Shown here: piece after piece, positions 15,208-21,177 of the stretch
Numbering within the stretch: position 1 is the stretch's first letter
How the letters are laid out: each line of letters opens with the position of its first letter
Origin: a virus
Direction: 5' to 3' (one strand)
DNA: 21,177 bases
IMG/VR virus record: IMGVR_UViG_3300034022_000567
Span: 1 to 21,177 of that record
Made by a program: the position numbers and the translations under genes
The notes under the pieces: generated by a model
Told to the model about the DNA's origin: nothing
Seen by the model: the letters and a program-made list of their open reading frames with translations, nothing else
The model's database searches: none

Positions 15208-16461
15208 TCATGGTTTCTCAGCCTTGAGTTCATCGAAGGTCTTGCCGCTGGCTTCGTGGATCGCCTGCTTGCCGGTGAACTCCTGCCAGCGGGTGACGGC
15301 GACATCCACGTAGGACGGATTGAGCTCGATGGCGTGAACGCATCGGCCCGTCATTTCGCCCGCGATGATCGTGGTCCCGCTGCCGCTGAATGGCTCGTAG
15401 ACCGCTTGTCCCGGGCTCGAGTTGTTCTCGATCGGGCGCTTCATGCACTCGACCGGCTTCTGGGTGCTGTGGCCGGTCTCGCTCTTCTGCGGCTTCGGGA
15501 TTTGCCAGAGGGTCGTCTGCTTGCGGTCGCCTGCCCAGTGTCCGGTGCCGCCTTTGCGGACGGCGTACCAGCACGGCTCGTGCTGGTGGTGGTAGTGGCC
15601 GCGGCTGATGGCCATGCAGGACTTGCCCCATACGATCAGGGCACGCCGTTGAAACTCGCACGCGTCGAGGCTGGCGGCAACCTCGGGCGAGTAGACGGAG
15701 GCGTGCCAGACATAGGCCACATCGCCGGGGAAAAGCGCCCACGCATCGCGCCAGTCGGCGCGGTCGTCGTTGGCGACGGTTCCGATTGCTTTAGCTCCAA
15801 TCGGAGTGCCGTCTGCTCGCTTGGCCTTGTTCCTCCACCCCGCATCATACTCCACCCCATACGGCGGGTCGGTCACCATCAGGTGCGGCTTCACGCCGTT
15901 AAGCGCCTTGTCCACCGTGCCTTGATCCGTGCAATCCCCGCAGGCAAGTCGGTGCCTCCCCAACACCCACACGTCGCCCAGCACGCTCACCGGATCGACC
16001 GGCGGCTCTGGAACCTCGTCCGGGTCGGTTTCGCCCTCGGTGGTCTCGGCGAGCAGGTTGGCGAGTTCGTTCCCATCGAACCCCGTCAACTCCAAGTCGA
16101 ACCCATCCTCGAGCAGGTCGGCCAGCTCCAGCCCGAGCAACTCCTCATCCCAGCCCGCGTTCAGCGCCAGCTTGTTGTCGGCGATGATGTAGGCGCGGCG
16201 CTGGGTGTCGGTGAGGTGAGAAAGCCGGATGCACGGGACCTTGCCGAGCCCGAGCTTCTGCGCAGCCAGAACGCGGCCATGGCCGGCGATGATTCCGTTA
16301 TCCCCGTCAATCAAGACCGGGTTGGTGAATCCGAATTCACGGATGCTTCCGGCGATCTGCGCGACCTGCGCCTCGGAGTGGGTCCGCGTGTTGCGGGCGT
16401 AGGGGATCAGGGTGTCGGTTGGTAGCTGCTCGATTTTCATAGCGGGGAAAAATATTGTCAC
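15208..16461 (-). CDS. ParB-like domain fused to DNA methyltransferase
   Basis: A 417-residue protein starting at a GTG at 16461 that overlaps the preceding stop as GTGA; an ATG eight codons in (16440) is the alternative, but AGAGGG upstream of the GTG supports the first. Residues 1-75 are a ParB/sulfiredoxin-type domain with the box NGIIAGHGRVLAAQKLG at 55-71. After a linker of acidic and proline residues comes a methyltransferase: DPPY at 198-201 and FSGSGTT at 358-364, with the AdoMet-binding motif near the C-terminus, as in beta-class N6-adenine or N4-cytosine enzymes. Such fusions are common in phages and are thought to protect phage DNA from host restriction. The target sequence cannot be read from the protein. 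Confidence 0.85.
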   Translation of the reverse strand: MTIFFPAMKIEQLPTDTLIPYARNTRTHSEAQVAQIAGSIREFGFTNPVLIDGDNGIIAGHGRVLAAQKLGLGKVPCIRLSHLTDTQRRAYIIADNKLALNAGWDEELLGLELADLLEDGFDLELTGFDGNELANLLAETTEGETDPDEVPEPPVDPVSVLGDVWVLGRHRLACGDCTDQGTVDKALNGVKPHLMVTDPPYGVEYDAGWRNKAKRADGTPIGAKAIGTVANDDRADWRDAWALFPGDVAYVWHASVYSPEVAASLDACEFQRRALIVWGKSCMAISRGHYHHQHEPCWYAVRKGGTGHWAGDRKQTTLWQIPKPQKSETGHSTQKPVECMKRPIENNSSPGQAVYEPFSGSGTTIIAGEMTGRCVHAIELNPSYVDVAVTRWQEFTGKQAIHEASGKTFDELKAEKP

Positions 16462-17345
16462 AAGTTGCGCGCCCTCTTCAGCGCGTCAAGCGTCGGCCTG
16501 CCATCAGGACCGAGCGCATTCGGCCCCAAGCGGGCAGTCACGGCCGCGATAGCCTCGCGGCGTAGGTCAGGCGGCAAATCGTCCACGTCGGCCTCCACGC
16601 CGGCGTTGAGCTGCTTGGCCGGCCCGATCCCGAACCGGGTCAGATCGGGCGGGACCAGCACCTCGCCCTTGCGGACCAGCCCGAGGGCTTCGGCCTCCTT
16701 CCGGCTGACCGGCTGCTGGGTCATGTAGCTGTTGAACCCGAACGGCCCCCAAGGCACCTCGAAGCCGCCGATCTCGGCGGCGTTCTGGAACAGCCAGAAC
16801 TCGAAATCGTCGTAGCGGCGGACCTGGCCCTCGGCGGCGACGTGCCGATCCCGGGGCGTGACTGCGCCAGGGCGGCGGAAGAACCGGGCGGCGGGCCATC
16901 GGTTGAGCGTGCGCGGGTTGGTCACCCGCGTCTGCCAGTAGGCGAACGTCTGCGCCTGCTCGGTGTTCGTCGTGAAGATGAGCTGGAGGCGGGCATTCGA
17001 GACAACGTTCGCGATCCGGGCGTCCTTGAAATCGGCCGGATCGGCGAGGCCCTCGGACACCAGCAGCGTCCCCGCACGTTCGCGGAACTCAGCGAGGCCT
17101 CCGACCTTGTAAACGGTCTCCTCCGCGCCGGTGGTCGGGTTGGTCACGGTCTCGGTGGTCCCGGCCTGCCAGTCCAGCAGCATGTTCCGCATCCGGTTCA
17201 GCACCTTCGCGCTGGTGATCGTCGCGGAGAAAAACGACCGCTGGCGGATCGCCGGGCCGACGGCCTGCCAGTCGGCGCTGTTGAACGTCGAAGGCGCGGC
17301 CTTGCGACGGAGCAAGGCTCGGAGCGCTTCGAGGAAAGCGATCAT
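16458..17345 (-). CDS. Mu F-like head morphogenesis protein
   Basis: A 295-residue protein from the ATG at 17345, which overlaps the stop of the small membrane protein as ATGA; an upstream in-frame extension is proline/arginine-rich and unlike the rest. Residues about 36-62 contain QRSFFSATITSAKVLNRMRNMLLDWQ, which recalls the helical start of Mu F/SPP1 gp7-type minor head proteins. The family core is near 118-200: ARLQLIFTTNTEQAQTFAYWQTR, PRDRHVAAEGQV and then FWLFQNA, where the R-x-x-I-x-x-T-N-x-x-x-A and the D-x-R-x-x-H signatures match. These proteins sit inside the head near the portal. Normally the gene follows the portal; here it precedes the terminase genes. Confidence 0.75.
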   Translation of the reverse strand: MIAFLEALRALLRRKAAPSTFNSADWQAVGPAIRQRSFFSATITSAKVLNRMRNMLLDWQAGTTETVTNPTTGAEETVYKVGGLAEFRERAGTLLVSEGLADPADFKDARIANVVSNARLQLIFTTNTEQAQTFAYWQTRVTNPRTLNRWPAARFFRRPGAVTPRDRHVAAEGQVRRYDDFEFWLFQNAAEIGGFEVPWGPFGFNSYMTQQPVSRKEAEALGLVRKGEVLVPPDLTRFGIGPAKQLNAGVEADVDDLPPDLRREAIAAVTARLGPNALGPDGRPTLDALKRARNL

Positions 17346-17497
17346 TCGATGAACCCGGGGGCGGTGAGGATGCCGAGCGACCCGATCGCGCAAAGAGCGA
17401 CCCCGGTGCAACCCAAGGCCGTCACGTCGAGCAGGACCGCGCCGAGGATGATCATGGCGGCGGAGCTGAGGATGGCGGTGATTTGGCGGCGGTTCAT
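17342..17497 (-). CDS. Small two-helix membrane protein
   Basis: A 51-residue protein from the ATG at 17497 to a TGA whose overlap ATGA carries the start of the Mu F-like gene, which strongly supports it. It has a basic start, MNRRQ, a hydrophobic stretch ITAILSSAAMIILGAVLL at residues 6-23, a short polar turn DVTALGCTG, and a second hydrophobic stretch VALCAIGSLGILTAPGF at 33-49. Two short membrane helices with a basic N-terminus are typical of small holins or other phage membrane proteins, but there is no endolysin next to it and late lysis genes are not seen in this window. Two cysteines (29 and 36) could pair. The role is unknown; the gene itself is likely real. Confidence 0.6.
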   Translation of the reverse strand: MNRRQITAILSSAAMIILGAVLLDVTALGCTGVALCAIGSLGILTAPGFIE

Positions 17498-17639
17498 GCG
17501 GTGGTGGTGGAGTCGGCTCCTCAGTTGTCGCGCCCGGCCGACGGCGAACGGTTATGAAAGGGCCTTGCGGCCCGCCCTTCGGCGACACTGTGGGATGGTC
17601 GGGATTCCGTCAGGCACGCCCCCAAGATGCCGGGGCCGG

Positions 17640-17686
17640 GCGGGATTGCAAGCAGGTAACGCGGGTAACGCGGGTAACAATCCCGC
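17640..17686. repeat. Three GGTAAC repeats inside a 9-bp inverted repeat
   Basis: GGTAAC occurs at 17655, 17664 and 17673, a 9-bp periodicity, with GCG between copies. The group is flanked by perfect 9-bp inverted arms, GCGGGATTG (17640-17648) and CAATCCCGC (17678-17686). Further copies of the same core, in inverted arrangement, lie at 17841-17853. Iteron-like spacing next to replication genes suggests protein binding. Confidence 0.6.
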
Positions 17687-17724
17687 GTTGGAGGCCAACC
17701 CCTTGAAAATCATGGCGGGAGACC

Positions 17725-17769
17725 CTACTTACTTACTCTACAACTAAAAATAGATTATTAAGTAAGTAG
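17725..17769. repeat. 11-bp inverted repeat in an AT-rich tract
   Basis: Perfect arms CTACTTACTTA (17725-17735) and TAAGTAAGTAG (17759-17769) flank a 23-nt loop that is almost entirely A and T. It is the most AT-rich place in this otherwise GC-rich window. It could be an unwinding element of an origin, a long hairpin, or a binding site overlapping the candidate promoter. Confidence 0.6.
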
Positions 17770-17886
17770 CCCTCTCCAATAGGGGCTCTCTCTCTAAATT
17801 TCTCTCTCTATTTTATAGGGGATGTATTTCCCCGGTTGCTGTTACCTCGTAACCCTTTGATTTGCAGCGGAAATCCCGTCACAAGT

Positions 17887-17923
17887 AACAACAAAGCCCG
17901 CCCTCCCCGAAGGAAAGGCGGGC
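17887..17923 (-). terminator. Intrinsic terminator after the SSB-like gene
   Basis: Inverted arms GCCCGCC (17896-17902) and GGCGGGC (17917-17923), with a short inner pairing TCC/GGA. On the minus strand the stem is followed by TTTGTTGTT, a broken T-run. It starts 18 bp past the stop of the SSB-like gene and would separate the replication genes from the head genes. Confidence 0.7.
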
Positions 17924-17940
17924 CGGATGGCGATGCCCGA

Positions 17941-18279
17941 TTAGAACGGGATGTCGTCGCCGCCGTCCGCGGGGGGCTCGGATTGCACCGGCGGAGGCGC
18001 CGCAGCGGCCCGCCCGATCGGCTTCCAGTTGCCGACGACCGGCCCCTTCTCCCCGGCTTCCCGGCGCTCCTTGGGGAGGTTGACGGCAGCGAATCCGGCG
18101 TAGCCGTATTTGTCCGCGCCATCTCGATTCGGGATGAGCGTCAGCTCGAGGTAGGAGCCCTTTTCGCCGACGTGGACGGCGTTTGCCTGGATCGGAATGG
18201 CGATGAACGCGGTGCCGTCCTTCGCGGTAAACGGGCGGGCTCCGGCGAATCTGAGCAGATCGATTTTCAGGCTTTGCAT
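17941..18279 (-). CDS. SSB-like single-stranded DNA-binding protein
   Basis: A 112-residue protein from the ATG at 18279, inside the end of the preceding gene (13-bp overlap); a longer in-frame extension reads as out-of-frame basic sequence and is rejected. The N-terminal 75 residues are a beta-rich OB-like piece: SLKIDLLRF, FIAIPIQANAVHVGEKGSYLELTLIPN and KYGYAGFAAVNLPKE. A low-complexity Ala/Pro-rich linker follows, and the protein ends GGDDIPF, the acidic tip that bacterial SSBs use to bind partner proteins. The family usually has 140-180 residues, so this one is short. It would coat single-stranded DNA during phage replication and recruit host or phage proteins through its tail. The tail is strong evidence; the OB fold is inferred. 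Confidence 0.7.
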   Translation of the reverse strand: MQSLKIDLLRFAGARPFTAKDGTAFIAIPIQANAVHVGEKGSYLELTLIPNRDGADKYGYAGFAAVNLPKERREAGEKGPVVGNWKPIGRAAAAPPPVQSEPPADGGDDIPF

Positions 18280-18512
18280 GATGTTCTTCTGAGTGCGGTG
18301 AGGATGGTCTGCATGGTGCGGTTGAAGCCGATGGCAAGCAAGGATTTGTCGACGCCCTGCTCGTAGGCGGCGCGGATCGCTTCGTCGCGCGCCTTGATCG
18401 CGGGCGGTTTGTTGACTCCGGGGCTGAGTGCCTCGCTGGGTTTGCAGCCGTTGGATTTGGCGGCCTCCCGGATGCACTCGCGGATGATGAGGGCGGTTTG
18501 TTTTGTGGTCAT
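18267..18512 (-). CDS. DnaA domain IV-like small DNA-binding protein
   Basis: An 81-residue basic protein starting at the ATG at 18512. The layout recalls the C-terminal DNA-binding domain of DnaA: a first helix with IRECIREAAKSNG, a loop, then AIKARDEAIRAAYEQGVDKSLLAIGFNR, which matches the A-R-x-x-A-x-x-x-A-x-E-x-x-x-x-S/K-x-x-x-I-G-x-x-F-x-R pattern at about residues 38-65. The typical DHxT signature that contacts the DnaA box is not present; the corresponding stretch reads NRTMQTILTAL. The leader is C/A-rich with no SD-like sequence. If correct, it would bind a phage origin site, perhaps in 17640-17770. A generic helix-turn-helix regulator is the alternative. Confidence 0.5.
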   Translation of the reverse strand: MTTKQTALIIRECIREAAKSNGCKPSEALSPGVNKPPAIKARDEAIRAAYEQGVDKSLLAIGFNRTMQTILTALRRTSCKA

Positions 18513-18856: not shown

Positions 18857-18891
18857 GGCTTGGTTTGGTTGACGGCGCAAACCTACCGCGC

Positions 18892-18926: not shown

Positions 18927-21177
18927 TCAGCTGCCAGTCACCGGCACCGAAACCGCCCGCTGCCGGATGTTGAGCCCGAAATTCAAAACCTCGTGCTTCT
19001 CATGCCCCGCCACCCGCTCAAGCTGCTGCCGCCATTTCGCGCCGGCCCATGGAGTATCCGCGAAAATCCGCTCGAGCGCCGGGTGCCGGTTGGCGATGCT
19101 CGCGCGGCCGTCTTTGATCAGGATTCCGTGCCGGCGGAGCGCCTCGCGGGTCTCGGCGACGACCCGCAGCGCGTCGTCGCTGATGGCGGAGCCGCCGAGC
19201 AATTGGACCGCCTCGGAGATCGATCTGGTAACGGCCCGCTCGTGGACCTCGTAGCGGATCGACGCGGCGAACAAATGGCTCAGGCACTGGTTTTCGTCGT
19301 TGTCGATCTCCTCGGATTTGAAGCCTGTCCAGTCCTGTTTTGCCATCCAGTCTTTCGCGAACTCCTCGGTGGCGATCCGGGTTGAGGTCAAAGAGAATGC
19401 GCCGGCGAGCAGGGTGCCTAGCTGGTCGGCGCTCCGTTTGTCGCCGGTAAATTGGACCGCCACGCAAGAGAACGTCTCGGCATTCGCCCGCAGGGTTTTG
19501 GCGTTGGCGAGCGATCGGGCGCGGATTTGCTCGGCGAAGCCCTTGCGCTGCACGGTGTCCATCCACAGCGCCTTGACGATCTCGAAATGCTCCTGCGAGC
19601 CGGGTCCGTTGTTTTTGCGCAACTGGAGGACAGTCACGCGGCTGACATCGGCCTTTTTCACCGCGGCGACACCGATCGATGCGAACAGGAAGCACGAGCG
19701 GACCATGTAGTCGATCGCCCCGCCGCCGGCGCTGCCTTTGGTGATCCGGGCCTTGCTCTCGCTCGACGCCTGGCGGGCGAGCTCCAGCACGCCCTCAAGC
19801 CGCTGTTGCCCCCGCTTGTCCTCGCTCTCGGCCTCGTCGAAAACGACCGGCAGCGCGTCGGAGCCGATTTTTTGCCTCAGGCCAGCCTCTGTGGTTGCGC
19901 CCTGCACGTGGATTGCAGAGTCCCCGACGATCGGCGAGATGATGTTCGCGACGCTCCATGACTTGCCCGATCCCGAAGGCCCGGTCAGCCACAAGTGCGG
20001 CCTCCAGACGAGCGCCCCGCAGATCGGCGCAATGGCGAGCCAGCCGGCGAGGAGTTTGCCGTAGAGCGGGCGCTCCCAACTGAGCATCTCGCAAAGCTCG
20101 ATCAGGCGGGCCGCGGTTCGATTGTCGGCACCATCACCAGAGTCGACGGGGATTTCCAGAGCGCCCTCGTAGATCGCCCGGACGGACGAGGAGAACTGCG
20201 GGATCGGTTTCGCGGTGCCATTGATCACCAGCCGATCGCCGGCATGGAAAACCACATCGTCGCCGTCGATCCAACATCCACGGCCGCGGATGCGCTGGGG
20301 ATCGAATTTCGGCAGGGACTGGCTGCGCTGAATGAGCGCGTTGACCGCCTGGTCCCAGCCTTTGCCGGTCAACTCGGTCCCGCCGCCGTAGCCCTCCTCC
20401 CACGCGTTCAGGACCGCTAGCCGCATCAGGTTGTTTTTCGTGTGGCTGCTGGCGGTCAGGCTCACCACCTGCTGCCCGCGGTCGGGCATGTAAAAAAACG
20501 AGTCACCATCGACTCCGAGTAGGCGGAACGGCAGGTCTTCGATCCGGTCATCCTGCCGCGGCTTGGCCGGCGGCGGCGGCGAAGCCTGCGCGGGTTGCCA
20601 CGGCTCGACCTCATCCTGCGGCGGTTCCTGCTCAGGCATCGGATCGGCCCGCGGACTCATGGCCTCGATGAATCGCGCCCGGTCCCAGCCCTCGGCAACC
20701 GCGTCGGCCAGATCCCATCCGTCGTCCGGCCCTGCCGGCGGCGTGATGATGCGGACTTTCGCGGCGATCCCGGCGAGAGCCTTGGCGACGGCGTGCGCGG
20801 CCTCGATGCCCGGCGCGTCCCGATCTGGCCAGATGACGACCTTGCGCCCGGCGAGCGGCGTCCAGTCGGCAAACCGGACGGCCTTCGACCCACCCGGCCA
20901 CGTCACCACGACGTGCGAGATCGTCCGCGCCGCGTCGGCGGCTTTCTCACCCTCGACGATCAGCACGCCGGCGTCGGGGTTGGTGGCGAGCAGGTCGAGG
21001 CCGTAGAGCGGGCGGGGCTTCCCGAAGGACAACCAGCGCCACTGCTCGCGGCCGTCGGTGTGGCGTGCCCATGTCAGCGGAATCACGTCCTTGCCGCCGT
21101 CGGGTTGATCGAACCGGCAGACGGCACCGAACAGGCAGCCGGTGGCGTCGCGGTATTGCCAGACGCCGGACGGTGCA
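18927..21177 (-). CDS. Primase-helicase (TOPRIM-like and DUF927-type ATPase), N-terminus cut
   Basis: The frame is open to the window edge, so the start lies outside; about 750 residues are visible (a GTG at 21086 is in frame but internal, since the upstream 30 residues continue the same domain). Counting from that GTG, the TOPRIM-like part has LIVEGEK at residues 42-48 and WPDRDAPG at 86-93, the acidic metal-binding set of primases. A linker rich in Pro and Gln spans 145-180. The helicase part has Walker A GPSGSGKS at 369-376 and Walker B LPVVFDEAE at 412-420, like the DUF927 family. It likely makes primers and unwinds DNA at the phage fork. It is the first gene of the visible block. Confidence 0.85.
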   Translation of the reverse strand, partial: APSGVWQYRDATGCLFGAVCRFDQPDGGKDVIPLTWARHTDGREQWRWLSFGKPRPLYGLDLLATNPDAGVLIVEGEKAADAARTISHVVVTWPGGSKAVRFADWTPLAGRKVVIWPDRDAPGIEAAHAVAKALAGIAAKVRIITPPAGPDDGWDLADAVAEGWDRARFIEAMSPRADPMPEQEPPQDEVEPWQPAQASPPPPAKPRQDDRIEDLPFRLLGVDGDSFFYMPDRGQQVVSLTASSHTKNNLMRLAVLNAWEEGYGGGTELTGKGWDQAVNALIQRSQSLPKFDPQRIRGRGCWIDGDDVVFHAGDRLVINGTAKPIPQFSSSVRAIYEGALEIPVDSGDGADNRTAARLIELCEMLSWERPLYGKLLAGWLAIAPICGALVWRPHLWLTGPSGSGKSWSVANIISPIVGDSAIHVQGATTEAGLRQKIGSDALPVVFDEAESEDKRGQQRLEGVLELARQASSESKARITKGSAGGGAIDYMVRSCFLFASIGVAAVKKADVSRVTVLQLRKNNGPGSQEHFEIVKALWMDTVQRKGFAEQIRARSLANAKTLRANAETFSCVAVQFTGDKRSADQLGTLLAGAFSLTSTRIATEEFAKDWMAKQDWTGFKSEEIDNDENQCLSHLFAASIRYEVHERAVTRSISEAVQLLGGSAISDDALRVVAETREALRRHGILIKDGRASIANRHPALERIFADTPWAGAKWRQQLERVAGHEKHEVLNFGLNIRQRAVSVPVTGS

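Follow-up and report, generated by a model that had tools for sequence, protein, structure and literature searches.

The complete IMG/VR virus record IMGVR_UViG_3300034022_000567 (21,177 bases, referred to here as the window) comes from an ordinary tailed phage and contains, at positions 17655–17889, an array of short GTAAC repeats which most probably is the replication origin of the phage. It appears to be of the type known from phage P4, the Staphylococcus aureus pathogenicity islands (SaPIs) and the phage-inducible chromosomal islands (PICIs), with the repeats (iterons) being bound by the C-terminal domain of the phage primase-helicase. A previous sequence-only reading of this DNA had described three GGTAAC copies enclosed by a 9-bp inverted repeat and had proposed an origin or a repressor site. 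The origin part of this proposal is favored by the position and architecture of the array, which are kept in relatives, by exchanges of the repeated word within the same layout, and by the precedent of P4, PICIs and SaPIs, whereas no support was found for the repressor part.

The three GGTAAC copies are located on the plus strand at 17655–17660, 17664–17669 and 17673–17678 (iteron group 1, 17655–17678; unit GGTAACGCG), at the positions and with the 9-bp spacing given previously, and belong to an array that is conserved in relatives; group 1 is altered but kept in loci L122–L130. Three additional sites had been overlooked, as had the AT-rich stretch which separates them from group 1. The inner pair of group 2 (17841–17853) consists of GGTAAC on the minus strand (17841–17846) and GTAAC on the plus strand (17849–17853), and an equivalent inverted pair is present in L122, L129, and L136; the outer GTAAC (17885–17889, plus strand) has counterpart sites in L122 and L129. 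The array thus is bipartite, with an AT-rich core of about 110 bp (17719–17830), a candidate DNA unwinding element, between two sets of three GTAAC sites. Positions 17729–17828 are the AT-richest 100 bases of the window (67% AT), most 1-kb stretches of which have a GC content of 58–68%. The density of six GTAAC/GTTAC sites per 250 bases was not approached in any of 200 shuffles, the maximum of which was three. An exact 6-mer triple with constant spacing of 7–15 bases occurs once in the window, and at least once in 5% of 200 dinucleotide shuffles. As had been stated, the array occupies a gene-free gap after the replication genes, bounded by the last replication-side gene (17941–18279, minus strand) and a small open reading frame (ORF; 17342–17497). 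A terminator-like hairpin (17895–17924, minus strand) separates the former gene from the putative origin; the region contains two terminator-like sites as compared to 1.0 expected.

The inverted repeat itself does not appear to be part of this system. Its 9-bp arms at 17640–17648 and 17678–17686 are perfect and do enclose the three GGTAAC copies, the first base of the second arm being the last base of the third copy. However, the window contains eight perfect 9-bp inverted repeats with loops of up to 40 bases, close to the shuffle mean of 7.3, so that the arms have to be regarded as ordinary. In nine relatives, the best match to the 9-mer arm comprised 8, 8, 7, 6, 6, 5, 7, 5, and 6 of the nine positions. 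Being of chance-level frequency and decaying in relatives, the inverted repeat was rejected as a functional element.

Conservation was assessed in 80 viral loci, retrieved from viral contigs with the window primase-helicase as query and sharing 33–97% identity with it. At least five GTAAC/GTTAC sites within 250 bases were observed in 21 of the 80 loci, and all of these clusters are located 3' of the primase-helicase gene; the check proposed in the sequence-only reading, a search for the same repeats in relatives, hence did not refute it. In L131, L133–L136, L164, L165, L167, L169, L183, L186, L197, L199, and L201, the cluster starts within about 200 bases of the gene end. Gene-adjacent GTAAC clusters extend to lineages with 35–43% primase-helicase identity, the lowest value being 35%, and the order iterons, AT-rich core, iterons recurs in relatives. 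In a blind test, 6-mer repeats were ranked without specifying a word, and the 400 bases after the stop codon were compared with the 400 bases upstream of the gene, a region being scored positive if it ranked in the top 2% of its locus. Downstream regions were positive at 28 of 77 viral loci, compared with none of 71 upstream regions. An independent set of bacterial genome contigs, fetched after the words had been seen, yielded 20 positive downstream regions among 77 loci and a single positive upstream region among 68. Conservation and blind test refute a chance origin of the iterons. The top cluster of L279 (Parcubacteria assembly), with six GGTAAC copies, is located upstream of the primase-helicase gene, not downstream.

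Lineages without GTAAC show the same layout with another repeated word. The gene-adjacent types obtained by word-free 6-mer ranking include GCAAAC, CATACA (GCATAC), GTCAAC, GACTAC, TATACA (GTATAC), and GTCAC. For eleven words, 35 of 77 loci reached p < 1e-5 for one of them, a post hoc value as the words were picked after inspection. At positive loci, 25 different words rank at the top, and 24 of them contain an AC or GT step, the exception TGCAAA being part of TGCAAAC. Such a step is present in 31 of the 107 different words found upstream and in 28 of the 67 from negative loci. At L161, nine CGCACG copies occur within 350 bases, 500 bases past the end of the primase-helicase match (8133); this repeat forms a GC-rich tract and is probably no iteron.

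The word has been exchanged even between closely related phages. L153/L155 (GCATAC) and L158/L159 (GCAAAC) encode primase-helicases that are 96–97% identical, their putative origins are alike in length and layout, and the two words occupy identical offsets (20, 45, 96, 245, 258, and 278). L185 (GTATAC) and L183/L186 (GTAAC) share 98.3–98.5% identity in the helicase core (residues 180–590) and 81.8% in the last 55 aligned residues. Among pairs differing by less than 6% in the core, with L187 (GCACAA) excluded from the comparison, the ratio of divergence in the last 54 residues to that in the core was 4.0 in ten different-word pairs and 0.97 in 62 same-word pairs; since pairs share members and switches are few, this effect represents two or three lineages rather than sixty. 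The Toprim part showed no comparable rise in different-word pairs (1.7 and 3.1). Apart from two gap-rich N-terminal columns, residues 510 (D/E) and 663 are the only ones of 719 alignment columns that separate four GCATAC from 13 GCAAAC proteins. Residue 663 falls within a beta strand predicted for the winged-helix-like C-terminal domain; it was dismissed as single specificity switch, its two independent changes on the tree being too few for a test.

A second motif, TCAANNNSTTR, is situated beside the iterons, typically a few bases ahead of one, and remains the same across changes of the iteron word. Of the four copies in the window, two lie in the putative origin and flank the core, at 17696–17706 (minus strand) next to group 1, and at 17850–17860 (minus strand) next to group 2, overlapping the iteron at 17849–17853. 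The 28 iteron-positive viral loci, from part of which the motif was derived, contain 30 sites versus 0.98 expected. The 20 iteron-positive genome loci, which were fetched independently, contain 12 sites versus 0.66 expected, with nine of the 20 carrying the box; four sites versus 2.1 expected were found at iteron-negative genome loci. As related loci do not count as independent in either set, p-values for these counts exaggerate the significance.

The primase-helicase gene (18927–21177, minus strand) has lost its 5' part at the contig end; residues are numbered from the GTG at 21086. Its product matches phrog_35358 (E 2.3e-98) and phrog_239 and shows an AAA+ helicase fold. Pfam matches to DUF6371 and Toprim_3 were weak and below cut-off, and a sequence profile search against PDB chains gave no match below E 0.019. 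An AlphaFold model based on 47 sequences (mean predicted local distance difference test score, pLDDT, 84.8) was matched by Foldseek to NrS-1 CTR, D5/E5, and the SaPI5 primase-helicase (7ola) with E values of about 1e-6 to 3e-5. With its helicase core fold and a Toprim-like N-terminal part, the protein can be classified as D5/SF3-like. The proposed iteron reader is its winged-helix-like C-terminal domain (residues 590–719, codons 18930–19319, minus strand), which modelled alone (130 residues) reached a pLDDT of 89.6. The top rows obtained with VIA-align were DUF1528 (2ipq, Z 5.2), SaPIbov1 Rep (8tch, Z 5.0), and an oriT-binding protein (5vfx, Z 4.6); the alignment to residues 452–554 of SaPIbov1 Rep covers 85 residues at 3.2 Å.

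Several observations weigh against the interpretation of the array as an origin read by this domain. Foldseek did not return any significant match for the C-terminal domain, and the Z score of 5.0 is modest, with tied rows and with unrelated winged helices among those scoring about 5. The GC skew of the window lends no clear support, as its sign does not change at the array and the cumulative skew peaks at 18875. In the clade of the window, the cluster lies 0.8–2 kb past the primase-helicase stop codon, with small genes in between. Moreover, 49 of 77 viral and 57 of 77 genome loci lack a gene-adjacent cluster by the blind test; the window clade is itself counted among these negatives because its cluster lies farther from the gene, and some of the other negative loci may truly be devoid of one. 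Five isolated phages possessing this primase-helicase were inspected, and three of them (PBb001, ZRG1, and MQ-4) lack a gene-adjacent cluster. In the other two, S-H1 (CGTTAG/AACGGT) and KLER1-1 (CTTACA), a cluster adjoins the gene. The candidate of Synechococcus phage S-H1 (17684–18000) matches neither of the skew extremes (8280 and 32945). That of KLER1-1 (48678–49168) lies at the record end; its skew, lowest at 157 and highest at 24492, would be compatible with a circularly permuted map, but near 24.8 kb the genes also change direction.

Similar arrangements are known from other elements. In the record of phage P4 (NC_001609), type 1 repeats GGTGAACA of crr come right after the gene of the alpha primase-helicase, on its 3' side and past a terminator, and ori contains further copies. 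As in the window, the short repeats occur in both orientations, and ori comprises three direct copies, one inverted copy, and two more, around AT-rich DNA. The systems differ in the word (GGTGAACA versus GTAAC), in that P4 has two separate cis sites, and in that P4 is a satellite while the phage of the window has terminase, portal, and capsid genes; the likeness is drawn from the DNA layout rather than from a comparison of alpha protein sequences. GTGAAC is the top word at the related locus L284. SaPI origins are described, in the available excerpts of PMC6092414 and PMC7581432, as located directly downstream of rep, with iterons that are read by the Rep C-terminal domain, and the C-terminal model of the window protein aligns to SaPIbov1 Rep. 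A direct downstream position applies to L131, L133–L136, L164, L183, and others, but not strictly to the window clade, in which about 1.0–1.3 kb and small genes intervene between primase gene and origin. Further differences are the constant TCAA box, which is unmentioned in these excerpts, and the association of the window system with a tailed phage that has its own structural genes; as such genes are encoded, the virus is not a PICI. According to an excerpt of PMC7581432, the C-terminal domain of the helicase Cch2 of the staphylococcal cassette chromosome SCCmec binds direct repeats downstream of its own gene, at a three-iteron site; however, these are other repeats on another element that has a separate primase. 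The crenarchaeal plasmid pRN1 requires a cis region just 3' of the gene of the ORF904 primase-helicase (excerpt of PMC4234260), which in contrast to the window array is a 100-base stem-loop without iterons, and ORF904 has an archaeo-eukaryotic primase domain instead of Toprim. What would set the putative origin apart from these systems is that their plan occurs in tailed phages, combined with the constant box and with several switches of the word. Among titles and opening parts of abstracts, no description of GGTAAC iterons or of the TCAANNNSTTR box in this phage family was found, which is weak evidence of absence.

The primase-helicase, whose gene lies shortly upstream of the array and on one strand with it, would bind the two groups of GTAAC iterons flanking the AT-rich melting region via its winged-helix-like C-terminal domain. 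Hexamers of the enzyme would then assemble at the iterons, and melting of the AT-rich core would allow replication to start. As a tentative generalization, which we consider plausible but somewhat short of probable, phage and satellite primase-helicases might share a two-part origin code, in which the constant TCAANNNSTTR box, contacted by an invariant surface or partner, stands beside iterons that are repeatedly rewritten when a small number of residues among the last ~54 of the initiator are substituted, with the AC/GT step being kept in nearly all words. Such a code would give rise to replication incompatibility groups, which perhaps serve escape from parasites or relatives exploiting the same origin.

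An origin whose iterons are read by a different protein, either a small helix-turn-helix (HTH) protein of the phage or a host factor, is an unlikely alternative. A candidate is the 81-amino-acid protein encoded at 18267–18512 (minus strand), about 580 bases from the inverted-repeat arms, in agreement with the distance of about 600 bp in the sequence-only reading, which had considered it a DnaA-domain-IV-like binding partner. Its gene adjoins in the window clade, and two of nine family members gave a weak match to HTH_23, the only match obtained. The presumed DnaA relationship was not borne out, as searches of Pfam and profile searches against PDB sequences did not reveal any DnaA match for the family. 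Moreover, the gene was found in just ten of the 80 primase-helicase loci, and GTAAC clusters are retained in 14 loci that lack it; we therefore rejected the DnaA-like partner and place the protein outside the origin system. Word changes, in addition, accompany changes in the C-terminal part of the primase-helicase, and word switching between near-identical phages would not be expected if a host factor were the reader.

A role of the array as operator, through which a phage repressor or regulator would act on the neighboring transcription units, is very unlikely. Intergenic repeats with dyad elements and an adjacent terminator-like hairpin would suit such a role, but a search for the sigma-70 consensus, the sole promoter type considered, found no promoter-like site in 17300–18300, and in the various lineages the cluster is situated past the 3' end of the primase-helicase gene rather than at the 5' end of a gene. 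A slightly fainter case can be made for a partition (centromere-like) site, since the window encodes, at 15208–16461 between the putative origin and the terminase genes, a protein in which a ParB_N domain and an N6/N4 DNA methyltransferase are fused. This ParB-domain protein, however, was matched in few array loci, although many loci do not extend far enough to reveal it, and an architecture with an AT-rich core is typical of origins. Chance repeats, as which the inverted repeat alone and the exact 6-mer triple might pass, can practically be dismissed, as the six clustered GTAAC sites exceed all shuffles and are conserved in relatives.

An origin bound by the primase-helicase would supply many tailed phages, both uncultivated and isolated, and genome-borne relatives with a predicted origin and initiator. 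Near-identical initiators with different words (L153/L158 and L185/L186) would represent a natural system for studying how initiator and origin specificity change together, a long-standing question. The iteron words might also help to locate the origins and initiators of further mobile elements. Twenty large ORFs near non-coding GGTAAC arrays were picked by size and nearness from 40 loci, and 16 of them are primase-helicases of four Pfam types (eight VapE-like, five DUF927, two DUF5906/D5_N, and one NrS-1-like); the others are a DNA polymerase, an integrase, and two ORFs without match. These arrays are from 120 pattern loci, in 40 of which the GGTAAC triple lies outside genes of at least 100 amino acids, as compared to 13 of 120 for the reversed control word, both among the matches listed. 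The mere abundance of GGTAAC triples in viral contigs was dropped as evidence, because the control word was comparably plentiful among the matches listed and many matches of both words sit in coding repeats. The TCAANNNSTTR box occurs within 300 bases in only eight of the 40 loci with GGTAAC arrays of other helicase families, and so is not general among them.

Every gene identified in the window is encoded by the minus strand. In gene sense, the array is preceded by the primase-helicase gene cut by the contig end, two small genes, and the gene of a protein resembling single-stranded DNA-binding proteins (SSB), and is followed by the small ORF and genes for a head-associated protein, the ParB-domain methyltransferase, terminase subunits, a Mu-like portal, and capsid proteins. 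The structural set comprises Mu-like portal, terminase, Mu-like protease/scaffold, and GP7-like capsid protein. The SSB-like protein (17941–18279, minus strand; 112 amino acids), whose gene lies between primase gene and origin in the window clade, matches only families of unknown function (phrog_36980); its acidic tail (DDIPF) and gene context suggest the designation. In L137–L145 and L168, its homologs are encoded upstream of the primase-helicase match end instead of downstream. The closest genome-borne relatives of the primase-helicase, with 45–50% identity, occur in Verrucomicrobiales/Verrucomicrobiaceae assemblies (L209–L211), which hints at a possible host of the phage.

Some further arrays were observed at other loci. 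In E. coli SK1144 (L208:12259) and at L050:6158, an integrated element carries a GGTAAC triple with an inverted copy immediately past the 3' end of its DUF927 gene. The array of the L050 type, about 30 bases past the DUF927 gene, belongs to an element that also carries integrase, ogr/Delta-like, and capsid genes, and its region was matched in 449 of 5426 complete E. coli genomes. At L306:7119, L311:5039, and L346:521, which belong to the 13 non-coding loci of the reversed control word, three copies of that word (CAATGG/CCATTG) at 9-base spacing and inverted copies lie beside ORFs of 729–760 amino acids; judged by eye, these loci seemingly share the origin plan with another word. Two GGTAAC triples no more than about 200 bases apart are present in the viral contigs L034 and L121, with opposite orientation in the former and equal orientation in the latter.
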